From the NCBI GenBank assembly GCA_022566355.1, contig JADFJB010000092.1, positions 1 to 19,865 on the forward strand: a stretch of DNA of 19,865 nt, given 5' to 3'. The notes under the pieces were generated by a model. It worked only from the letters and a program-made list of their open reading frames with translations. It made no database searches and had not been told where the DNA came from. Positions 1,010 to 18,251 of the stretch are shown one piece after another (within the stretch, counting starts at the first letter, position 1; each line of letters starts with the position of its first letter). The position numbers and the translations under genes are program-made. The DNA is from a candidate division KSB1 bacterium (GTDB lineage Bacteria; Zhuqueibacterota; JdFR-76; DREG01).

Positions 1010-1612
1010 ATGAACAATTTGAGTGATGCCGAATTAATCGAACGGTTCAGGAAAGGACAAATTCAGGCATTTAACTTGCTGGCATGGCGTTGGCAAAAGC
1101 CGATTTTAAATTTTCTATATCGATTTCTCGGAAATGTACAGGACTCAGAGGATGCTTGTCAAAAAACTTTTATTAAGGTATATCAAAAATTGATGGGTTT
1201 GCAGGATTTAAATAAATTTAGGGTTTGGCTTTATCAAGTAGCCGCGAATCAAGCGAGGGATCAATTGCGGCACAGGAAGCGGCATTCATTTTTTTCGATT
1301 GATTCAAACCCTAATATGGATGACGAAATAGTGCCTGAACTCCCTGACCCGGAATCAAATAATTTGGAAGGCAACGCACACGGGAAACAGTTACGGCAAA
1401 TATTTGAAGAAGCCATGCAAACCATACCGAAAGAACAGCGAGCCGTCATCGTTATGAAAGTATACCAGGATTTAAAATTTATTGAAATTTCAGAAGTCTT
1501 AAAATTGCCATTGAATACGGTGAAATCCCGCATGTATTATGGCTTAAAAGCTTTGAAAGAAACTCTCAAAAAACAGAACCTCAGTGAGGAGGCGTTGAGT
1601 TATGAAATGTGA
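1010..1612 (+). CDS. ECF-family RNA polymerase sigma factor
   Basis: This 200-residue protein has the two-domain layout of an extracytoplasmic-function sigma factor. Region 2 occupies roughly residues 5-80: DAELIERFRKGQIQAFNLL, then VQDSEDACQKTFIKVYQKL (the -10 recognition helix) and FRVWLYQVAANQARDQLR. An acidic linker at about 100-120 leads to region 4 at about 138-190, with TIPKEQRAVIVMKVYQDLKF and a helix-turn-helix EISEVLKLPLNTVKSRMYYG that would bind the -35. The in-frame ATG at 1010 has GGAG five bases upstream; an ATG at 1006 is out of frame and soon stops. The last 11 bases overlap the start of the anti-sigma gene, which implies translational coupling. The cognate signal and regulon are unknown. 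Confidence 0.95.
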   Translation: MNNLSDAELIERFRKGQIQAFNLLAWRWQKPILNFLYRFLGNVQDSEDACQKTFIKVYQKLMGLQDLNKFRVWLYQVAANQARDQLRHRKRHSFFSIDSNPNMDDEIVPELPDPESNNLEGNAHGKQLRQIFEEAMQTIPKEQRAVIVMKVYQDLKFIEISEVLKLPLNTVKSRMYYGLKALKETLKKQNLSEEALSYEM

Positions 1613-2288
1613 TTTGGTAAAAGACCAACTAATGGATTATGTTTTCTCGGAGTTAGATGATCCATCCCGGGGGAAAATAGATGAACATCTAAAGAAATGT
1701 GAGAATTGTTCGAATGAAGTTGTAGAATTCAACCAAACAGTAACAGTGATGAAAAAATGGCCCCAGGTTGAGCCGATACAAAAAATGATCTTCACGGTTC
1801 AGAAGCTCAATTTTCTTGATCGGGTAAAAACATTTTGGTCGGAATCGATGGAAACATCCCGAATTTGGCGCTGGGGTTTTCGTTTGTCCGTAACCGCTTT
1901 CGTCCTGGCTCTGTTATTCATTCGAGCGGATTTTACATATGGCGATGGCCAGTTTTCCATAACTTTTGGCGGCAAAGAAAACACAACCCGGATTTCAAAT
2001 TCACAAGAATTGGTGGCGGCTTTGAAAAAGGCACAACAAGAAAATTTATATTTAACCAGCCAATTGATTCAAGATAGCGAAATCCGACAAAGAAACTTAT
2101 ACATTTCCAAAATGAATGAGTTATCCAAAATGATGGATCGACAACGGCTGACAGATTTGCGATTTGTAGGTGAAAGCCTGAACCGCATAGATCGAAGAAA
2201 TACATATCAATTTGACCGGACTAATTCGATCTTGCAGGGACTCGTTCTAACGACAGGCTCAAACAATTTTGATAACAGAAATAAGTAA
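1602..2288 (+). CDS. Membrane-anchored zinc-finger anti-sigma factor
   Basis: The 228-residue protein begins with a zinc-binding anti-sigma (ZAS) module: Cys3 and then His29-x3-Cys33-x2-Cys36 within HLKKCENC. This module normally clamps the sigma factor at the membrane. A single transmembrane helix lies at about residues 91-107 (WGFRLSVTAFVLALLFI). The rest, about 110-228, would be periplasmic and contains a long charged helical stretch at about 132-190 that looks like a coiled coil and may be the sensing part. The start overlaps the sigma gene by 11 bases and has GAGGAGG upstream. The order sigma then anti-sigma is the standard arrangement and makes it the partner of the 1010 gene. Confidence 0.9.
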   Translation: MKCDLVKDQLMDYVFSELDDPSRGKIDEHLKKCENCSNEVVEFNQTVTVMKKWPQVEPIQKMIFTVQKLNFLDRVKTFWSESMETSRIWRWGFRLSVTAFVLALLFIRADFTYGDGQFSITFGGKENTTRISNSQELVAALKKAQQENLYLTSQLIQDSEIRQRNLYISKMNELSKMMDRQRLTDLRFVGESLNRIDRRNTYQFDRTNSILQGLVLTTGSNNFDNRNK

Positions 2289-2308
2289 ACAATAAACCGG
2301 AGAGTAAC

Positions 2309-3430
2309 ATGCGTTTTTCAAAAGAAATTACAGCATTTATTGTGATTGCAGCCCTTTTATTGATCGGAGATTCGAAACCCATTTTTAGTCAATCCAAGAA
2401 AGCGGTTATTAAATCGGAAATTTATGTCATGGAGAGCATTCTCGATCAATTATTGCAGGCTTCCCGCCAAAACTTATTCGAAGGAAAAAACATAAAAGGT
2501 TTTTACCTGGATGATTTTGGTTTGGTTTTTACAGTTAGTATAGAAAGAAACCTCTTTAGTATTTTTTCATTTGGTAACGAATTTGGAATTTCAGTTGGCA
2601 GGAGTGGGAATAAGAAAGACGAAGAGAAAGATAAAGCAAGATCGTTCGCATATGTGGCCGGCTCAATGGATACTGCTCAAATGAACGAATGGATGGATAA
2701 ACTGAATAAGAAAATTCATACATTTTTAGGGACATATGTTGATGTTAACAATCATCTGGGTTCAAAGGAAAATGTCGGTGTACTGGTATCTTTTAACAAC
2801 ATGGGCAGGAATCAACCGCTTGGGAAATTCTATCAGGTAGTGAAAAGTAATATTGTGGAATATAGAAATGACAAGATCGACCGGGATGGGTTTGTAACGA
2901 GGATAAACCAGCAGAATATCGATGATGGCAATGAGCTTGAACAAATTTCGATTATGAGCAGAATTTTACACTCAAGTTTATCTGAAAAAAGGAGCCAACT
3001 TTTTTTTGGCAATCGAAACATTAATGGCGTGTATATTAACAACCTCGGTGTCATGTTTACGGTTGGAGGAATTTCACTCATTCATGATTTAATCATAGAT
3101 TCTCTTCCCCTGGCTCCAAAAGTGTTTAGAGCGGAGGATTTTGCGTTTAGTGCGAGAAAAAGACAAGAGGAAGAAAAGAAGAAAGTAAAAGAGAAAATAT
3201 CAGATTATAAAAAGAAGATTGTGAAGATTATAGGTGATTATGGCCCGTCATTAAGGTTTCTCCCGGCGAATCAATCTATCATTGTTTTGTTTGGTGCGGA
3301 TGGCGGGTTCTCTGATGTTCAATCTTCAAATGTAATGATCCGTTTAAAAAAGGGTGATGTGATGAGATATTCCCAAAATAAACTTGATTTGAAAGGTCTC
3401 ATTAAACTAGCCCAGCTTGAAGAGTATTAA
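2309..3430 (+). CDS. Exported protein with a duplicated unknown domain
   Basis: I do not recognise this 373-residue protein. Residues 1-28 are a signal peptide ending PIFSQ, so it is probably periplasmic or outer-membrane associated. It is an internal duplication. Residues 41-78 (SRQNLFEGKNIKGFYLDDFG, then LVFTVSI) match 216-254 (KRSQLFFGNRNINGVYINNL, then GVMFTVGG). Residues about 135-198 (KIHTFLGTYV, NVGVLVSF, NIVEYRNDKIDRDGFVTRIN) match about 303-366 (KIVKIIGDYG, QSIIVLFG, GDVMRYSQNKLDLKGLIKLA). Each repeat is therefore about 150-160 residues. Lysine/glutamate-rich helices sit between the halves at about 101-110 and 283-303. It follows the anti-sigma stop by 20 bases with GGAGAG before the ATG, so it belongs to the same operon and may be the periplasmic partner or a target of the ECF system. 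Confidence 0.85.
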   Translation: MRFSKEITAFIVIAALLLIGDSKPIFSQSKKAVIKSEIYVMESILDQLLQASRQNLFEGKNIKGFYLDDFGLVFTVSIERNLFSIFSFGNEFGISVGRSGNKKDEEKDKARSFAYVAGSMDTAQMNEWMDKLNKKIHTFLGTYVDVNNHLGSKENVGVLVSFNNMGRNQPLGKFYQVVKSNIVEYRNDKIDRDGFVTRINQQNIDDGNELEQISIMSRILHSSLSEKRSQLFFGNRNINGVYINNLGVMFTVGGISLIHDLIIDSLPLAPKVFRAEDFAFSARKRQEEEKKKVKEKISDYKKKIVKIIGDYGPSLRFLPANQSIIVLFGADGGFSDVQSSNVMIRLKKGDVMRYSQNKLDLKGLIKLAQLEEY

Positions 3431-3458
3431 ACACGGCATGTTGAGAAGTAGCTAAAAG

Positions 3459-3487
3459 GTAATTATCAAAATTGCTTTTTTGATTAC
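3459..3487 (+). terminator. Weak stem-loop after the ECF operon
   Basis: GTAAT (3459-3463) pairs with ATTAC (3483-3487), and CAAAA (3467-3471) pairs with TTTTG (3478-3482), with a three-base bulge. It lies 29 bases beyond the stop of the operon's last gene and contains a T run in the loop and 3' arm. The stem is AT-rich and there is no clean trailing U tract, so termination here is only a guess. Confidence 0.25.
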
Positions 3488-3556
3488 TAATTATAATTAA
3501 GGGGAATTTGAGATCCAGACGATGAAATTTAGTTTTCAAAATAATTTACTTGCCAA

Positions 3557-3840
3557 TCACGATAAGAATTTCCCCACAAGGCGCTTTCCATTAATATCCC
3601 TGTAATCCTGTGAATGGGGATCATGACAATCGATGCATGACATAGATCCGTTGATACAGCAATCCCTGAACAGGTGATTCTGCTGATAGCCAAATTTTCG
3701 GATCCGGCCATCTGCAAAATATGGATTCTTGCCAAAAATAGGTAACTTAAGTGAATAATAATATTGTGCCGGATGTCATCAAACTGAATATGATTTATGG
3801 AAGAATTCGACACACGGAGTCAAAGAGTGCACTTAAACCG
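3557..3840 (-). pseudogene. Decayed multiheme c-type cytochrome fragment
   Basis: The frame read leftward from 3775 to the stop at 3557 encodes HPAQYYYSLKLPIF, then FADGRIRKFGYQQNHLFRD, then GSMSCIDCHDPHSQDYRDIN. CIDCH (minus strand, 3623-3637) is a CxxCH heme-attachment motif. A single CxxCH followed by DPHSQ and then R-D-I-N-G is typical of extracellular or periplasmic multiheme cytochromes. Upstream in the same frame two stop codons precede His-Pro where another CxxCH-Pro would be expected, and further up TPCVEFFHKS (about 3795-3823) looks like a broken CVECH motif. There is no start, no signal peptide and no full-length frame. I read this as the remnant of a larger cytochrome gene. Between here and 4058 I see nothing coding. 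Confidence 0.6.
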
Positions 3841-4058
3841 GGTTATCTTCCAGGGAAAAATTTGTAGTTTTGGGGGGAATTTAGAGTTTGAAGCAAAACT
3901 ATTTTATTTAGAAATACTTAAACAGCTATGTTAAGTCCAGATTATTTAAATTAATCATTGGTTTTATTTTCTCCAAGATATTTTGAAACCGGGAGACTTG
4001 CTGAATATTTTCGTAAAATGGAGATTTTGCAGCTCATCGTAACTATACCTAGCTAGGG

Positions 4059-4434
4059 TCATCTTGATTGATCTGACGATCTATAGACGCTGGCAATGGA
4101 GAGCTGCTTATCTTCAATTTTATCCTTCAACGATTTCCCATCTACATACATAGTCCATGGCGATATAGGCTCTATCTTCAAACTCGCCAATTTCATGGAT
4201 GGTAATGATGTTAGGGTGATTCAGAGCGGCAGTCGCTTTGGCTTCCCGTTTGAAGCGGGCATTTACTTCGGGGTCTTTGGAATAGAAAAGTGGCAAAAAT
4301 TTGAGGGCAACTTTGCGATCCAGCTCGGTGTCTTCGGCAAGGTAGACTTCACCCATCCCGCCCTCTCCAAGCTTTTCGAGAATTTTGTCCCGCCTGCTGG
4401 GCGGGATTGTTTGGCTGATCAAAGTTAGAAGCAT
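4059..4434 (-). pseudogene. 5' fragment of a Ser/Thr protein kinase
   Basis: The fragment encodes only the N-lobe of a Hanks-type kinase. It has the glycine loop [20 protein letters not shown], the lysine motif VALKFLP, the helix-C glutamate in [20 protein letters not shown] and YIAMDYV. It then shifts frame at about 4144-4151, where a duplicated GTA-T-GTA-GAT lets the next frame continue [19 protein letters not shown] before homology ends near 4070. No catalytic loop follows, so no active kinase can be made. It closely resembles the first 110 codons of the intact kinase gene that ends 32 bases upstream on the same strand, which points to a tandem duplicate that was then deleted. The N-terminus is also odd: PPSRRD replaces the usual SHYK/SHFK because a short palindrome sits there. 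Confidence 0.85.
4388..4406. repeat. Perfect 7-bp palindrome in the kinase relic
   Basis: TCCCGCC, a five-base loop TGCTG, then GGCGGGA. It lies in the codons that replace the SHF/SHY segment just ahead of the kinase core and is GC-rich against an AT-rich background. It could be a template-switch product or a tiny inserted palindrome. Confidence 0.6.
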
Positions 4435-4466
4435 CTTTCAAAAAATGAATATTCAGACCAAACATC

Positions 4467-7068
4467 TCATCCTTTTGGACGAAATAGTTCAACAAATGAG
4501 GGGTGATCCCATAAAGACTGAAAATCTATATTTCGATGTGGAAATATGCAATAGCCATAACCTTTTTTTAATGTGTCTATTAAATAAGTCATAGCTTGTT
4601 CCCGTTCATTGAGAATAGCGGCTGTTCTGGCTTGCTCTAATATATTATTGCCAAGAGGATGTTCTCGACTACTTAGCTTTTCAATAATCCGTAAAGCCTC
4701 ATCCCTGTCCTCTTTCCTGGCTGCAATTGCTCCTAAGTTACCCCAATAAAAAATATCTTGCGGATAATCCGCCGCCAATCCTTCAAATAAAACGCGAGCC
4801 TTTTCCCATTGTCCGGACAAATAATATGCGATCGCCAGACCATTTCGAGATTCTTGTGTTTTCATCTCTTTAGTTGTTCGAGAATTGTGCCAGGCAAGTG
4901 AACGGTCAGTTACTCTTTCAGAAGCATCCCCGTAACCATGACGACGCAGAGTTATTGCAGTTTCATTCATAATAAATCCTGGTGTCCACCTTTGGAACCA
5001 TGGCACACCTGCACGACCCCGTTGAGGTGGAAGAGTAAGGCATTCATCAAGAAGCTTGTTTAATTCCTGTTCTCTTCCTAATGCCGCCAATGCCCTGGTT
5101 TCGTACAGCAATGTTGCTATTCGTGTTGGGTGTAATTGACGACCTTGCCTTGCCTTGTTTAATTCTTCCTCAAAGTTTCCGGTCATATGAAGAGCTTGTG
5201 TATAAAAGTCCCAGAAATGCCAATCGTCTTTTAAATGATCATCATCGGTATCAATATTTGAGTAGGCTTCTAATGCTTCGTTGGGCCGCCCGTAAAAAAT
5301 AGCGTCCACGGCAAATTGAATCATGTATGGTGTGGTCGGTGCTATGCTTGCAATTCCCTTTGATGCCAGATATATTTTTTCTCGATCACCCTGGGTATAT
5401 GCCACACTCCAGTCCAGGCTGTGGCGTTCAAACGGGAGTGAGTCGCTCCCGGTAACGATAAAGGACATTACTTATCGAATCAACCTGGCTGAATTGACCT
5501 AGATTTAGATGACAACCTGAAGCATTTATTAAAGCAGTAACAAACGTCGTATCAAGGCTATATGCTTGATAAAACAAATCTTTCGCTTTTCTAAAATTGT
5601 GACGGGTTTGGTACGCGAGTCCTTCAATAAAGGCATTATAAGCTTGATAGTTAGGAGGTTGACTAATTCCATGCGTAAATGCCTCCATTCTGGCATCTAA
5701 GTGAGTTGCCATTACACCCATAACTTTTTGCTTTAATTCTCCGATTGTAGATATTGCATCTTCCAAACTTCCACCTACAGGTTCCAAACCACCAAGCAGT
5801 TTGTTTGTTGCCAGTTCCATTACTTGTGCCTGAAATTGAATGGTTTCACCCTGTTTGTAATAATTGCCGGAAATAACAATGTCCGACTTGGTTTTAGAGG
5901 CTAAAAACGGGATAACAGAAGCCATCTGTACGCTTTGTTCTGAGTCCTCTAACCCATGAGTGCTTGCTAGAACTGCAATGGTTGGAACCACATGCATCAA
6001 ATTAGTCTGTGCAAGGCCTTGAGAAATCCAATCTGCAGCTATAGTGCCCAATGGATCAAGTGAACTGTCTCCCGTTTGATTCTTGAATACAGCAACAACG
6101 ACTCGCTTTTTCTCCGGGATTGGGCTGTCTTTGTTTAAAAAATAAAAAAGCGTTATTGCCAGGAGAGCCAATATAGAAAATGTAGCCGCAGAAATCCTAG
6201 CCCAACTTATCTTTGCCGGTTTTTTAGAAACAGATGAGCTCAAGAGAACAGCAGGCATTTTTTCCTTATCAGATTGCAAATCAGCTAATAACTCATCAAT
6301 TTGTTGGTACCTTTCATCGCATTTTTTTATGAGTGCATTTTTAACAATCTGCTCCAACTTGTCCGGAACTTCGGATCTATGGATAGTAATCGCCTCTGGC
6401 TCTTCGTTTACAACCGAATACATAACCGCCGCTTCGTATTCACCTGGGAAAGGTACATTTCCTGAGATCATTTCATATAAAAGAACACCGGTCGCCCAAA
6501 TATCCGCCCGGTGATCAACCTCCTCGCCTTGGAATTGTTCGGGTGACATATAATAAAGAGTACCCATTGTGCTGGCTTCTTTAGTCAATTGTGTCGCGCC
6601 CTTTAGTTTAGCCAAACCAAAATCAAGAATCCTGACTCGATTATCCTGGTCAATCATTATATTTTCAGGCTTTAGATCTCTATGAACAATTCCAGCCTGG
6701 TGAGCTTTGCTCAGTCCATCACATATTTGGATTGTATAGTCAACTATCTGATTCAATGAAAGTGAGTCATCCTTAATCTTTTCTTTAAGCGTCACACCCT
6801 CTACGTACTCCATTGCGATATAGGTTGTACCCTCAAACTCACTAACCTCATGTATAGTAATAATGTTGGGGTGGTTTAATGCAGCTGCTGCTTTAGCTTC
6901 CCTTTTGAAGCGGGCATTGATTTCAGGATTAAAGGTGTTATTCGGAGGTAAGAATTTCAAAACTACCCTGCGTTTTAACTCAGTATCTTCTGCAAGAAAT
7001 ACTTCGCCCATTCCGCCTGCACCAATTTTTTTGAGGATCTTGAAATGTGAAATTGTTTTACCTACCAT
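4467..7068 (-). CDS. Membrane Ser/Thr kinase with TPR sensor, frameshifted
   Basis: The gene starts at ATG 7068 behind GAGAGG. Residues 10-265 are a complete Hanks-type kinase: glycine loop GAGGMGEV (16-23), Lys38 in VLKF, Glu57, catalytic HRDLKPEN (Asp131), DFG (Asp149), and MSPEQ as the APE-like motif. One transmembrane helix lies at about 290-311. Next comes a segment starting RVVVAVFKNQTGDSSLDPLG, the TolB/CsgG-like module common in these sensors, and then TPR-type helices to the C-terminus. The frame breaks at 5434-5436: RERLTPV then stops at 5428, while the next frame continues PFERHSLDWSVAYTQGD. Removing one C of a CCC run restores RERLTPFERHSLDW and an open frame to the stop at 4467, giving about 866 residues. 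The break may be a read error or a real mutation; the truncated form would keep kinase and membrane anchor but lose most TPRs. The gene follows the lipase-methyltransferase gene by 30 bases, so the two probably share one operon. Confidence 0.88.
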
Positions 7069-7098: not shown

Positions 7099-9002
7099 TT
7101 AAGACTTAGCTTCCAGCGGCTTCGTAGTTACCATAATCAAATTAACACCCTCAGGCTCTGCCATGACGAAATGCCGCCCTTCCGGAGCGCCGGCTTTACC
7201 GATGGCCAATAATTCATCTTCCGTGCGATGGATTAAAAACCAGTCAACAGTACTTTCCATCCATAAACGTAGAGGATTGCTCGGATGAAAGTTGCCAATT
7301 AACAACAGACCGCCGGGATTTAACTCAGTGTAGAGCCGGTTAATCATAATAGTTGCCACTTTCTCTTCCAGGTAATCGAAAAGCCCCAATGAATAAATAA
7401 TATCCTGAGGACCAAGAGTAATTTCCTTTTTGATTAGGTCCTTTACACTTGCGTTTACATAAATTACATCAAGCATTTTTTGGTCTGGTATATTTTCTCT
7501 TGCATAGTCCAGGGCTTCTTTATCTTGATCCAAAAGTGTCCAACGCAACTTCAAGTTTTGTGTATTTTCCGACAGCGACTTCATTGTTTCTGCTACTTCT
7601 CTTGCAGGTCCACAGGCAATGCTTGCCAGCGAAAGCTCTTTTAACTGATAAACTCTTTGCTGGATAATACCCTGAAGTATTTTAGCGCGGTTTCTAACCG
7701 CGTTTGTTGTGGGGCTAGAATAAACAAGAAAATTCAATAATTTTCCCATGTTCGATTTTGCATCAAATAACTCATTGTCATAAATGTAGTTCATCATTTG
7801 ATAATCGCCGGCATACCCTAACGGTTTCTCCAAGACTCTGCTTAAATAAGGATTTTGATCTAAAATGGATTTAAGATTGCCCAATCTTTTTTTAAATTCT
7901 TGGCTGGCAACTTGTGGATCCGGGTATTTGACATTCAAGGCATTCAAAAATTCTTGAAACTTTTTTGCAAATTTAGGAAACTCTTCGATCAACTCGCCAT
8001 CGGTCATATTGGCAGTTCTTCTCTCAAGCTCCTTAATGTAGGGTTCTATGTCAGAAATCTCATTTTCCACTGCCAAATTCGCCTGGGATATAGATTCTTC
8101 ATTTGTTTTTTTTAACTGCTCCGCTTTCATCACATGCTTTGGGTAATTGCCTTTCTCTATTTCCTGGATCGCTTCATAAGTAATTTTTATGCCAAGATCG
8201 ATAATTTCATCCACACGTGAAATATCTTTCGCCAATTCCTTTGGCACCCTTGGCCGCAACAAAATTTCGCAAGCCGGCTTGGAAAAATAGATTTCATTGC
8301 TGGTTTGCCAGCCTAGCATTCTTAAAACATGCGGTTGAGCTTTTTTCCCAAGAGGTAATTTTCTTTGTGTAGCGCTGTGAATTGGCTTGGCCTGGATAGC
8401 TATCACAAAATCCGCTCCCTCAGCATAAAGTGTTTTTGTGTCCAGGGGAGCAAAGATAGCGCCATCGGCCAATTGCATGCCACCCATCTGTTTTTCTTCC
8501 AAAAGCAAAGGCATGGCAAGACTGGCACGCACTGCATCAAAGACCTTCCCATGCCGCAGGATGACATTTCTTTGTGAAACTTTATCTGATGCCACGATCA
8601 ATAGCGGTATCCTAAGTTCGTAAAACTCCGGATCCCAACCAGTAACTTTAATCAATTCTTCGATGAGCTTCTCGCCGCTGGATAAAGGGAGGCCTGGGTA
8701 TTTCCTGTCATGTATCAACGCCTGCATTACACCATCAATTTCAGATATCCCAAGAACCTTATTCCTGATCTCCTCAGGAGATAATCCACTTGCGTAAAAC
8801 GCCCCAATTACGGCTCCCATACTTGTGCCGGAAATTAGACTCACTTCAATTTTTAACTGCTTTAGGGCAATTAGCATACCCAGATCAACCAATCCAATGG
8901 GTAATCCTGGCCCTAAAGCCACGCCAATTTTTTTGCCTTGAAAATGTCGGTGGCTCTATCGGAGAGTTGTAAACGGGTTAGGCTATTCGAGGTTGGTTGC
9001 AT
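7099..9002 (-). CDS. Patatin-like lipase fused to PhcB-like methyltransferase
   Basis: Continuous frame 7099-8922 encodes two domains. The N-terminal patatin domain (about 1-260, counted from the GTG at 8922) has the oxyanion loop GPGLPIG, nucleophile Ser34 in GTSMG and Asp153 in ADGA, the usual catalytic dyad of lipid acyl hydrolases. After a helical linker comes a segment with KPLGYAGDYQMMNYIYDNEL and a class I SAM-dependent methyltransferase domain (about 430-600): motif I ACGPAREV (436-443), acidic LLDQD (463-467), GLFDYLEE, NPGGLLLIGNF and DWFLIHRTEDE. That combination matches my memory of the family annotated as 3-hydroxypalmitate methyl ester biosynthesis (PhcB type). The natural start is probably ATG 9002, which has AGGA six bases upstream and gives MQPTSNSLTRLQLSDRATDI before KAKK; it reaches the patatin frame only by a -1 shift at an A7 run. 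The expected full product is 634 residues. The downstream neighbour is a membrane kinase. Confidence 0.85.
8928..8934 (-). other. A7 run in -1 slippery-heptamer phase
   Basis: Reading from ATG 9002, codons 23-25 are GCA AAA AAA, so the run is phased as A_AAA_AAA, the form of a -1 frameshift site. Without slippage, translation stops at TAG 8913-8915 after 29 residues; with a -1 shift it enters the 607-codon patatin frame as KKIGVALGPG. The same repair would result if one A were missing from the assembly. I see only a weak TGGC/GCCA hairpin just downstream. Confidence 0.6.
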
Positions 9003-14727: not shown

Positions 14728-15609
14728 TTATTTAGCCGTTCTATATATTGGTGAAAACCAGGTGAATGTAGATGTCTCAGGGGACACGGTCAAGCCTTGA
14801 GCACCCTTTCTGAATAGCCATTTGAGAGACTTTGTTATAATATAATTCAAAACTTTGTGTCTTTCTTGAAGGAAATCAACCAAAATATCTGTATAGTCTT
14901 GGTCAATTTTCTCTAGCAGGATATTCTCGGGTCTCTTGAACTCTTGGTATAGATCTTCAATTGCCAATTTAAACTTCGGATCTCTATTATCAAAAGCCCA
15001 AAAAATAATAAATCGCCCGAAGTTCAATTCGCTAAGCATATCACACGATTTTGTGATAGAGTTATCTAAATAATCAAATAACCAGTTTTCATTGTCGACT
15101 TGCCCCTCCATTACATGTTTACGCAATTTGTCTCTAAGGGCATACAGTCGGTATCTATATCGTTTGATCGAAGTATCGAGACTAAATTTTTTTAATTCAT
15201 ATAAGAGATACAGACAAATGACGAAAAATAAAAATGCTACAAACATCATCTCAGACTCCTTTCTTTTTTGAGCCAGGTTGACTATGTTGTAAGTCCTTTC
15301 CAATAACTTTTTGTTCGTGGGCAGTTTTCCACCCAGACAATCTTTCGACCTCTTTTTCACATCCGTTAACAGCTCTTCATACTTTTTTTTATAGATATTT
15401 TTTTGTGCGAAGAGCACAACTGAAAAGAAAATAAGCATAAGAATTAACGGGTAAATTTGGTCAATGTTTTCCCCCAAAAAGAGCATACGGAAAAAACTTT
15501 GCTTATCTTCCGTGGCTCCGAAAGTATAAAATCCAAATAATAAGATCAATAAAAAACTCATAGATGGGCCAATTTTTTCAACAAGCCCTAGGAAAGTTTT
15601 GGAAAACAT
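14728..15609 (-). CDS. Unknown three-helix membrane protein
   Basis: I do not recognise this 293-residue protein. It has three hydrophobic helices at about residues 16-32, 52-68 and 121-137. Lysine-rich helical stretches flank them (70-90 and 138-165). The C-terminal half, from about 145, is a hydrophilic all-helical domain with many charged residues and DQDYTDILVDFLQERHKVLN. By positive-inside reasoning the lysine-rich segment 70-118 and the region after helix 3 may not lie on the same side, and I cannot settle the topology. The ATG at 15609 has no clear ribosome site, and a second ATG at codon 17 also lacks one. It is divergent from the gene at 15637 with only 27 bases between the start codons, so promoters must overlap coding sequence. 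Confidence 0.75.
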   Translation of the reverse strand: MFSKTFLGLVEKIGPSMSFLLILLFGFYTFGATEDKQSFFRMLFLGENIDQIYPLILMLIFFSVVLFAQKNIYKKKYEELLTDVKKRSKDCLGGKLPTNKKLLERTYNIVNLAQKRKESEMMFVAFLFFVICLYLLYELKKFSLDTSIKRYRYRLYALRDKLRKHVMEGQVDNENWLFDYLDNSITKSCDMLSELNFGRFIIFWAFDNRDPKFKLAIEDLYQEFKRPENILLEKIDQDYTDILVDFLQERHKVLNYIITKSLKWLFRKGAQGLTVSPETSTFTWFSPIYRTAK

Positions 15610-15636
15610 TTCAAAGGTTAAATAAAGGAGAAACCC

Positions 15637-15999
15637 ATGAAACCTTTTAACAAGAATGGCGGACCGATTTTCGCAGAAGTTTCAGCAGGGCAAGCGCAGA
15701 CAGGATCTTATGATCTCAAACTGTGGGAAGCTGATAAAAATGTGATCGTAAAGCGTTGGGAAGGCGATTTCTTAAACCCGGATGATGACAAATACAAACT
15801 CCCGGGAACCAACGAAGAAAACAACAAGCGACGGGTCCAGGCAGTTGTAGTGATTGCCCTTTTGGCTCCGATCGATCGCTATAGCGCCACATTGACCATC
15901 ACACAAGATGGTAATGAACTAGACAAAGTTACGATTGCCAACCAAACAAATGACCCCAGTGTCATTTTGAATTTATACACTACTCTAGAGCAAGCCTGA
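15637..15999 (+). CDS. Unknown 120-residue soluble protein
   Basis: The product has no signal peptide or membrane helix. It starts with MKPFNKNGGPIFAEVSAGQA and alternates short hydrophobic strands with charged turns (YDLKLWEADKNVIVKRWEGD, VQAVVVIALLAPIDRY, SATLTITQDGNELDKVTIAN), which suggests a beta-sandwich. An acidic loop FLNPDDDKYKLPGTNEEN sits in the middle and might bind a metal. I do not recognise the family. AAAGGAG precedes the ATG, and the stop overlaps the ribosome site of the next gene, which starts 12 bases on, so the two are translationally linked. Confidence 0.75.
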   Translation: MKPFNKNGGPIFAEVSAGQAQTGSYDLKLWEADKNVIVKRWEGDFLNPDDDKYKLPGTNEENNKRRVQAVVVIALLAPIDRYSATLTITQDGNELDKVTIANQTNDPSVILNLYTTLEQA

Positions 16000-16011
16000 G
16001 GAGATGTAATT

Positions 16012-17136
16012 ATGAAATCTTTTAGTAAAATCTTATTATTTGTTCTGTTATTTGGGGTAAATGCAATGGACGCTTTTTGCCAATTGCCATCCGGCATAAC
16101 CTTTAGCGATTTAACCGTGCCTCCCGTACTTGCCAATTCATTTCGGCTCGATTTCGCTGTTCCTGCAGCGCCAGCTTTCCAGCTTCTGGGCTCGGAACCA
16201 AGCACTATATTAAGGCCTTCTTCAGTCAAAGAGTTTGGCGCCAGTTTTTCAAGCTTTATCAATTCAAGCCAAAAGATTAGTATCCCAGGGGCTTTTGCGA
16301 TTGAGTTTTCTCCGGGGTTGCTCATCGGGGGCAATGAGTTAACACTTCAAGGATATTTGAATAAACCCTGGTTATACAGGTTGCGGCTTTCTGCCGGGAC
16401 AAAACGACTTGAAGGAGAAACAAACCCGACTCAAATAGCGTTTGGATTCCGGACCAGTTTTATCGATAAATCAGATCTTCGTGGGGACAAAGAACTGCTG
16501 GAGGATATAACGAAAATAACTAAAGAAATGCTCAAGAAAATCTCGGATGATGTGCCTCCGCCACCTCCAGGAGTAAGCGGAGCTGAAGTAGTACAACCAA
16601 GTTCCATACAGCAGACTTTAATTGACTCTTTGAATACGGTGCTTAAAAACAGGATAGATCTTGCTAAAGCTAATATTGATAATATTTGGAATAAAGATGC
16701 CCTTGATCTTGCTGGCGCTCTGCTCTTTAGCGCTCAAGATTCATTGGGTAAGAACTTACGAGCAGTTAAATTCACTGGCTGGTTTACTTATGCGAAAGGA
16801 ATTAGTTCGTGGGGTCAGTGGCTTCTAGGCTTTAAGGCCGGCACAGCACGAGATAGTGTAGGAACGCCATCGGATAGCCTGGGGAACAACTTTCATTTTT
16901 CGGGTAGCGCATCAACGCGTTTATATATAGGAAGTAATTCCTATAAAATGTTTGTGGAAGCACAATACTCAAAACAAAATCAAATGGAATTGCTTCTACT
17001 TAATGGCGGAGGAGAAGTTAGATTTCGAAATGGAATGTGGTTCTCATTTGGCGGTGGCGTCGAACGCAATTTTGATCTAAAAGAATGGAACATAGTTAGT
17101 AAGCTCACGCTCAATTTAGGGCTTCCCTTCCTGTAA
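16012..17136 (+). CDS. Probable outer-membrane beta-barrel protein, unknown family
   Basis: This 374-residue protein has a signal peptide (MKSFSKILLFVLLFGVNAMD, then AFCQ); it lacks a proper lipobox. Beta-rich segments follow (FAIEFSPGLLIGG, LTLQGYL, WLYRLRLSAGTKRL, IAFGFRTSFID). A helical insertion with a PPPPPG linker lies at about 150-225. After it, alternating strands resume (RAVKFTGWFTYAKG, WLLGFKAGTARD, FHFSGSASTRLYIG, YKMFVEAQYSKQ, MWFSFGGGVERNF, IVSKLTLNLGLPFL). A C-terminus ending in a strand with terminal aromatic/hydrophobic residues is the usual form of outer-membrane barrels. GAGGAG of its ribosome site overlaps the stop of the 120-residue gene, so the pair works as one unit. I cannot name a substrate or partner. 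Confidence 0.75.
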   Translation: MKSFSKILLFVLLFGVNAMDAFCQLPSGITFSDLTVPPVLANSFRLDFAVPAAPAFQLLGSEPSTILRPSSVKEFGASFSSFINSSQKISIPGAFAIEFSPGLLIGGNELTLQGYLNKPWLYRLRLSAGTKRLEGETNPTQIAFGFRTSFIDKSDLRGDKELLEDITKITKEMLKKISDDVPPPPPGVSGAEVVQPSSIQQTLIDSLNTVLKNRIDLAKANIDNIWNKDALDLAGALLFSAQDSLGKNLRAVKFTGWFTYAKGISSWGQWLLGFKAGTARDSVGTPSDSLGNNFHFSGSASTRLYIGSNSYKMFVEAQYSKQNQMELLLLNGGGEVRFRNGMWFSFGGGVERNFDLKEWNIVSKLTLNLGLPFL

Positions 17137-17402
17137 AAATAAAGAATATTTAAGTCAAAAACATAGATAATTTCAGATATGACCGAGTTTTAACACTTAT
17201 GTGTTCTATGAAGGGTTGTTATTCAAAGGAAATTGGGAGTTAAATGATTTTGGGTTACAATAAATAAATTTGACTTACTAAGGTCGTTTAACTTTTTTTT
17301 AAATAAATCTTGTTTCTCTAGACTAATTTGGCTATTTTTCTTTAAAATTCAGCCACTGATTAGGACAAACCAGGGAATTGAATAAATAACTTAACATAGC
17401 AA

Positions 17403-18251
17403 ATGAAATGCATTAATTGCAAAACTGATATATCAAAAAGTCAGGAACGGTCTTGTCCCACATGTGGGCAAGATATCGGATACCCTCACATTAGAGAAGT
17501 AAACCAGGAGGAGGAAGTCGAAGCTCTCGAGTTGAGATATCAGCAAGCCAAATCCACTGCTGAGGTAAATAATACAACCCAAGCGCTTAAAAGTTTTGAA
17601 GATTTTGTTAAGAATGCTTGCGCAACCATTAATGTTGATATAGATTTCTTGTACAATTTTGTTACGAATGACAAAGTTCTTTATTCAACATATGGTTTAC
17701 AGGTAAAAGGACAGGTGCGTAAACCAGCCGATAAGCAAGACGACCATAACCGAAAAATTGCCGAAGCAATCTTATTTGGAAGCTATGGCGAAAACATAAG
17801 ATATGCTGCTTTGTCCATAGACGGAACCGGTGTTAAGTCATACGGCCCGTTCGCTATTAAACTTAGAAATATTGCTATTGAGAATAGAACTGTCCTGCTG
17901 GAGAATGATTCTTTCGATTTTATAAAAGAAAGACAACTAACAATTGGTGACTCAATCCCAGCTGGATACCGGGCGACCTGGCAAGAAAAATATAAACTAG
18001 CTGTGGCAAAACATGGGGATGAAATTAGCGTAGATTTGCCAAAAGATGAATTTGCCGGAATTCTGTTATTTAGTGAAGGGAACTATGATACCGACCGATT
18101 CATAGAAGTTTACATATATGGTGCATTTGATAATAATGCCATAGAATCCGTACAAGGAAAGTCATCTTTACCTAAAAAGGTTGAATCTGCAATGCTTGAG
18201 GATGCGAAAGAATACCTCGACAACGCAGGTCAAAAATGGATCGAAGAATGA
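17403..18251 (+). CDS. Zinc-ribbon protein of unknown function
   Basis: The 282-residue protein opens with a zinc ribbon: Cys3-x2-Cys6 and Cys18-x2-Cys21 (MKCINCKTDI, SCPTCGQDIG). A short helical part follows (about 34-75, EEEVEALELRYQQAKSTAEV). The remainder is a compact alpha/beta domain with FLYNFVTNDKVLYSTYGLQV, YGENIRYAALSIDGTGVKSY, AIKLRNIAIENRTVLLENDS and PAGYRATWQEKYKLAVAKHG. I do not recognise it; no signal peptide or membrane helix is present, so it is cytoplasmic. The ATG at 17403 lacks an obvious Shine-Dalgarno sequence, and the 266 bases before it are AT-rich and empty. Its stop overlaps the next start in ATGA, the strongest sign that it and the TPR protein act together. Confidence 0.8.
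   Translation: MKCINCKTDISKSQERSCPTCGQDIGYPHIREVNQEEEVEALELRYQQAKSTAEVNNTTQALKSFEDFVKNACATINVDIDFLYNFVTNDKVLYSTYGLQVKGQVRKPADKQDDHNRKIAEAILFGSYGENIRYAALSIDGTGVKSYGPFAIKLRNIAIENRTVLLENDSFDFIKERQLTIGDSIPAGYRATWQEKYKLAVAKHGDEISVDLPKDEFAGILLFSEGNYDTDRFIEVYIYGAFDNNAIESVQGKSSLPKKVESAMLEDAKEYLDNAGQKWIEE

Follow-up and report, generated by a model that had tools for sequence, protein, structure and literature searches.

The question raised by this locus is whether a single protein both frees an acyl chain from a lipid and methylates it. In the window, the whole stretch of 19,865 nucleotides that was analysed, one gene joins a patatin domain to a class I methyltransferase domain resembling PhcB. PhcB carboxyl-methylates (3-hydroxy) fatty acids, phcS lies directly after phcB, and some bacteria count each other by methyl-ester molecules of this sort. 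If the fusion works as proposed below, a single protein could turn cell lipids into methyl esters.

The fusion gene and its patatin half

The longest single-frame ORF of the patatin-methyltransferase fusion (7099..8922, minus strand) extends from GTG at 8922 to the stop codon at 7099-7101 and encodes 607 aa. Its frame is open up to 8955 (618 codons), and GTG at 8922 is the earliest in-frame start codon. The domain residues are numbered according to P0002, a 612-aa protein in which the fusion is translated from 8937. All features of the fusion given below are on the minus strand. A translation check places the patatin and class I methyltransferase motifs within this single unbroken frame, which bears out the earlier note, where GTSMG and DGA had been read in one frame with ACGPAREV, GLFDYL and NPGGLLLIGNF.

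The patatin domain (8173..8937, residues 1-255) matches PF01734 (Patatin) with an E-value of 1.9e-15 and a score of 58 bits, and passes the curated cut-off of 27.7; the complete relative L117 gives a score of 38.6 bits. This half matches PlpD (5fqu) by sequence with an E-value of 6.8e-20, and the full-length model matches PlpD (5fya) by structure with a Z score of 20.6 over 190 aligned residues at 3.0 A. The predicted catalytic serine is Ser39 in GTSMG (8815..8829), and the predicted catalytic aspartate is Asp158 in DGA (8458..8466). These two residues and three glycines of the oxyanion loop (GPGLPIG, 8893..8913) are invariant in an alignment of three fusions and RssA. The serine motif is GTSMG also in the G056 copy and GSSIG in L117. 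The usual Arg or Lys of the loop (GxGxx[RK]G), which is common in Patatin, but not strictly defining, is replaced by Ile in the window and G056 and by Glu in L117, and is thus absent from all fusions, whereas the stand-alone patatins compared keep the Arg (GSGGARG and GGGGARG). The fusions therefore have the patatin fold and the dyad in common with RssA and PlpD, but differ from them in the loss of this Arg and in the presence of a methyltransferase. The patatin domain, which had been described as intact, is intact in its Ser-Asp dyad and in its three oxyanion-loop glycines, but not at the Arg/Lys position.

Because no fusion has this Arg, with Ile or Glu standing in its place, the patatin half might be a catalytically weak lipid-binding module that merely presents the substrate. 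This alternative is improbable, because the fusions, at 44-58% overall identity, all retain the Ser, the Asp and the three glycines, a pattern expected under selection for hydrolysis. We infer that the patatin half acts as a hydrolase, the acyl donor of which may have shifted.

The body of the fusion is preceded by a 5' segment in another frame (8923..9002), which begins with ATG at 9002, has an SD-like AGGAA upstream and encodes a conserved N-terminus. The ATG 9002 frame reads MQPTSNSLTRLQLSDRATDIFKAKK and then closes. The sequence compared with it is MNTTLNSYSVTRLQLSPSAPQLQGAKK in L117 and SSRSLTRLMFSSKAAELKEAKS in L027, and the N-terminal reading of L027 is SLTRLMFSSKAAELKEAKSIGVALGPGLPIG. 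In L117, the N-terminus MNTTLNSYSVTRLQLSPSAPQLQGAKKIGVTLGAGLPEG is continuous with the body in one frame. In the window, the ATG 9002 segment joins the fusion body only across an A7 run (T7 on the plus strand, 8928-8934). Comparison with the relatives suggests that the ATG 9002 frame is very likely the true N-terminus of the window fusion, and therefore that the frame is broken at A7 in the window assembly; the cause of this break may be an assembly error, a slippage site or a true mutation. Thus, of the limits previously assigned to the gene, 7099-9002, the lower one coincides with the stop codon, but the upper one is the ATG of another frame than that of the fusion body.

Family and fold of the methyltransferase half

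The two domains are connected by a long helical linker (7918..8172, residues 256-340), predicted with low confidence from the secondary structure of the full-length model; the pTM of this model is 0.46, so that the mutual orientation of the two domains is not fixed. The PhcB/FmtB-like methyltransferase domain (7102..7917, residues 341-612) consists of a helical part and a Rossmann fold. Generic Pfam methyltransferase models match this half only below their cut-offs, and it is therefore without a good Pfam model. The superfamily signature KPxGYxGD ... RNR ... CGP ... GLFDYL ... GNF ... NP ... ME is nevertheless present. In the helical part, K, P, G, Y, G and D of the family signature KPLGYAGDY (7801..7827) are invariant among 39 sequences. 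ACGPAREV (7594..7617) is assigned by motif alignment as the putative SAM-binding loop, the first Asp of LLDQD (7522..7536) is the invariant acidic residue closing strand 2, G, L, D and Y of GLFDYL (7369..7386) are invariant, and NPGGLLLIGNF is located at 7288-7320. In the METHYLTRANSFERASE half, KPxGYxGD, the CGP loop, GLFDYL and W.L..R are common to all sequences in two alignments.

The motifs KPxGYxGD, RNR, CGP, GLFDYL, GNF and NP..ME are common to the fusion methyltransferase and a PhcB-like protein (Paraburkholderia graminis WP_114158447), and the identity is about 32% over the methyltransferase domain. Among plasmid sequences, the best match is to a protein of Paraburkholderia, the gene of which is followed by those for a histidine kinase and two response regulators in a phcBSRQ-like cluster. 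The Paraburkholderia PhcB-like protein has Arg at position 22, as does Ralstonia PhcB, which is responsible for the carboxyl methylation of (3-hydroxy) fatty acids (PMC6989110). However, PhcB-like proteins are about 468-500 aa long and have another N-terminal domain, whereas the fusion has a patatin domain at this position.

In a 100-row tree, the fusion methyltransferases form one clade with 99-100% SH-aLRT support. The PhcB reference rows of this tree are Burkholderiales PhcB-like proteins, with Ralstonia PhcB itself left out, and a tree uniting these rows with the fusion clade is rejected (AU p = 0.005). PhcB orthology is also ruled out by the neighbourhood: PhcB-like proteins, which are placed in a different clade from the fusion, are encoded in operons that also include a histidine kinase and response regulators, whereas the neighbour of the fusion is a Ser/Thr kinase and not PhcS with response regulators. 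A single query for a PhcS-type sensor found none in the fusion-bearing genomes. Thus, assignment of the second half to the PhcB family stands at the superfamily level, as judged from homology to the PhcB-like protein, but does not extend to PhcB proper, the product of which is 3-OH PAME or 3-OH MAME. The C-terminal half groups with the PhcB-like superfamily and not with an unrelated methyltransferase family, the outcome that the earlier note had set against its own proposal, and its motifs indicate that membership in this superfamily holds.

The AF2 model of the methyltransferase half (pLDDT 89.2, pTM 0.86) has a Rossmann fold and a helical domain as in 3OCJ. The best match of this model among PDB structures is 3ocj, with a Z score of 22.6 over 251 aligned residues at 18% identity (model 16-285 on chain 17-302). 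This match takes in the helical part and is about 4 Z units above every other row; the next row, ChlM (Z score 18.4 over 203 residues), is aligned from residue 49 onwards. The protein in 3OCJ, from B. parapertussis, is orthologous to Bordetella FmtB (BP2936), and its crystal contains a ligand, most likely palmitate, in the cavity of the all-helical substrate domain (PMC5426589). Overproduction of FmtB raised the amount of methylated fatty acids in cells, whereas that of a SAM-site double mutant did not; purified FmtB was inactive in vitro, and the authors allow for the effect being indirect (PMC5426589). The SAM-binding acidic residue of FmtB, Asp147, which was mutated, is located at the end of strand 2 and is followed by Tyr (PMC5426589). 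The Asp of LLDQD, invariant in the family at the end of strand 2, may hold the same type of position, but is followed by Gln in the fusion. FmtB, which acts on free fatty acids, consists of a helical substrate part and a Rossmann fold, as does the C-terminal half, but is stand-alone, membrane-associated, monocistronic and without the patatin domain that the fusion has. The predicted fold of the C-terminal half points to free fatty acids as the substrate.

Alternatively, the methyltransferase half may be a CheR-like protein carboxyl methyltransferase that regulates a lipase or a signalling protein. By sequence profile, the best PDB match is the chemotaxis methyltransferase 5ftw (E 9.5e-10), above 3ocj, and Pfam CheR gives a weak match (E 7.5e-4). 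However, 3ocj leads by 4 Z units structurally, with the helical part included, and the genes beside members of the family encode histidine kinases rather than chemoreceptors. CheR is rejected, because its Pfam score, 19.4 bits, is below the cut-off of 27. A CheR chain is absent among the structure matches listed, which excludes nothing by itself. The CheR-like function is thus very unlikely.

Recurrence and precedent of the domain union

The same fusion is found in three genomes of two named groups, at 44-58% identity. Among 82 genomes of the window's phylum, it is present in the window genome (G000) and in G056, another Calditrichota-phylum MAG, the copy of which (C223) is 58% identical over residues 2-575 and is cut at the C-terminus by the contig end. 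The Rhodothermaceae MAG G082 (C370) has the full-length fusion L117 (gene at 2769-4679), which lies mid-contig and is 44% identical over residues 2-604, and a second fusion copy, which is cut by the contig start. The Caldithrix sp. MAG G033 has the methyltransferase half only (56%). One relative (L026/L028) keeps the methyltransferase without any patatin, indicating that it is able to stand alone. No patatin remnant was found upstream of the methyltransferase-only Caldithrix relative L026, and no patatin adjoins the stand-alone methyltransferase relatives in 80 loci.

No other fusion was found in 114 genomes of the order of G082 or, besides G082, in about 390 genomes sampled from each of the phyla of G082, G083, G084 and G085. 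The four-phyla search, which scored the three highest-ranking candidates of each genome under strict thresholds and included one sample search without a positive control, shows rarity, not absence. The viral contigs searched gave a single weak relative of the methyltransferase.

Every example of the fusion is a MAG, the copies L027 and L118 are located at contig ends, and the window copy is broken in frame at A7, as might be the case for a MAG artefact. However, the junction between the two domains falls at the same point in independent assemblies, the L117 gene lies complete inside its contig, and the fusion clade has 100% support. Misassembly is rejected on the basis of three independent full junctions, and an artefact is hardly credible. 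The fusion is real, rare and conserved, and the concern that it occurs only here is removed by its recurrence in other genomes.

Each half is of a known kind, but a literature search found no paper describing the union of a patatin with a methyltransferase, and this combination of domains is new. In plan, its closest precedent is E. coli YnbC, in which an N-terminal acyl-ester-type hydrolase is joined to a methyltransferase. YnbC gives an hhalign score of 92.7 against the methyltransferase half over 203 columns, reaching into the helical part; the UbiG (59.7), Cfa (57.2) and BioC (39.4) families give lower scores over fewer columns and are rejected. However, the hydrolase of YnbC is an alpha/beta hydrolase (Hydrolase_4), whereas that of the fusion is a patatin, and the methyltransferase of YnbC, of putative function, is a Methyltransf_20 very distant from that of the fusion, which scores 15.3 bits against this model (PF12147), below the cut-off of 21. 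YnbC is called distantly related, not a member, because its branch in the tree is very long. The ynbC gene is located between the phospholipid-type genes ynbAB and ynbD, and its cluster encodes a CDP-alcohol phosphatidyltransferase and a CDP-diglyceride synthase. Because the hydrolase of YnbC is of another kind and its methyltransferase is a distant relative, unions of a hydrolase with a methyltransferase have apparently originated more than once, which makes fatty acid methyl esters derived from lipids a general product that can be tested for.

Proposed reaction and gene neighbourhood

The fusion is probably, with a likelihood of roughly 60%, a bifunctional enzyme that converts lipid-bound acyl chains to fatty acid methyl esters. 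The patatin domain, with its Ser39-Asp158 dyad, would hydrolyse an acyl ester to a free fatty acid. The PhcB/FmtB-like domain would take the freed fatty acid into its helical pocket, where the methyl group of SAM would be transferred to the fatty acid carboxylate to yield the methyl ester. Joining of the two halves would keep the scarce free fatty acid beside the methylating site. This two-step chemistry is coherent, because the second half is of the PhcB-like family and has an FmtB-like fold for free fatty acids. Sequence and model show that the fusion is conserved, that its dyad is intact, that it has SAM-binding motifs and an invariant acidic residue, and that the solved fold closest to its second half is that of a free-fatty-acid methyltransferase. 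What we infer is both activities, the passage of the product between the halves, the acyl donor, which may be a phospholipid, a neutral lipid or a thioester, and the chain. The union hints at the source of the fatty acid for the methyltransferase, namely a lipid hydrolase in the same chain.

A Ser/Thr protein kinase gene (5428..7068, minus strand; Pfam Pkinase E 3.6e-54; one predicted TM segment) begins 30 bp past the fusion stop on the same strand. With 14 Pkinase matches in the window genome, it is unlikely that the fusion and the kinase are adjacent by chance. Downstream of each of the two Rhodothermaceae copies are a STAS gene and a Ser/Thr kinase gene. These Rhodothermaceae kinases differ in build, one of them having a receiver domain, and in comparison with the L118 kinase, the window kinase is second among many near-equal scores, with no unique ortholog. 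In the related loci, a histidine kinase gene is directly downstream on the same strand in 41 of the 73 that have a downstream gene, compared with 2 of 166 control genes at least four places away.

The frequent pairing of the family with histidine kinases suggests, more weakly than the chemistry is suggested, that the product acts as a diffusible signal. The methyl ester may be a dedicated quorum signal that is exported and sensed, with the neighbouring Ser/Thr kinase, together with STAS in Rhodothermaceae, in the place of PhcS. The strong link of the methyltransferase superfamily to histidine kinases and the position of the kinase genes, directly after the fusion in the window and, together with STAS, downstream of both Rhodothermaceae copies, are consistent with this role. 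It is, however, rather doubtful, given the unlike build of the Rhodothermaceae kinases, the lack of clear orthology of the window kinase to that of L118, the 14 Pkinase matches in the window genome, and a receptor and export that are only putative. Moreover, we know of no signalling role for FmtB, the nearest solved relative. It is less likely still that the fusion is a one-protein methyl-ester signal synthase of Calditrichota and Rhodothermia, which obtains its acyl chain by drawing on membrane or storage lipid rather than on fatty acid synthesis and in which a Ser/Thr kinase/STAS arrangement replaces the Phc-type histidine kinase.

The same chemistry might serve the housekeeping of membrane or storage lipids, in which free fatty acids are cleared or detoxified as neutral methyl esters during lipid turnover, without signalling. 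FmtB esterifies an ordinary C16 fatty acid, an acyl-ACP desaturase gene is located near L027, and FabF-like and acyl-CoA synthetase genes are located near L026. Loss of the oxyanion-loop Arg with GxG kept would fit a neutral-lipid patatin; ATGL-type patatins are not known to have this Arg. However, the wider family is strongly linked to histidine kinases, and a kinase adjoins the fusions. A housekeeping role is a reasonable possibility, though one to which we give less than even odds.

PhcB-type systems and PhcB-like methyltransferases are mostly known from plant pathogens, and the present loci extend these methyltransferases and their histidine kinases to many uncultured phyla. In the loci L030-L107, a PhcB-like protein of about 480 aa followed by a histidine kinase is common in Verrucomicrobiota, Myxococcota and others. 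In the KSB1-type loci L062, L078, L084 and L099, a histidine kinase of about 610 aa is followed by a 303-aa stand-alone PhcB-like methyltransferase, and in L062, L078 and L084 a protein of about 105 aa, of unknown kind, is encoded ahead of the histidine kinase. This arrangement is possibly a Phc-like system in uncultured phyla.

Several other features of the window were observed. Three ORFs at 14728-18251 (293, 374 and 282 aa) have no Pfam match at E 0.001. The kinase ORF (5428-7068) and a TPR ORF (4467-5468), both on the minus strand, overlap by 41 bases in different frames and may together encode a single kinase-TPR protein, in which case the frame would be broken a second time. Beside the intact kinase is a truncated Ser/Thr kinase fragment of 104 aa (4120-4434, minus strand), perhaps a decayed duplicate. 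On the plus strand, an ECF-type sigma factor, a zf-HC2 anti-sigma-like protein and an unknown 373-aa protein are encoded in a row at 1010-3430.
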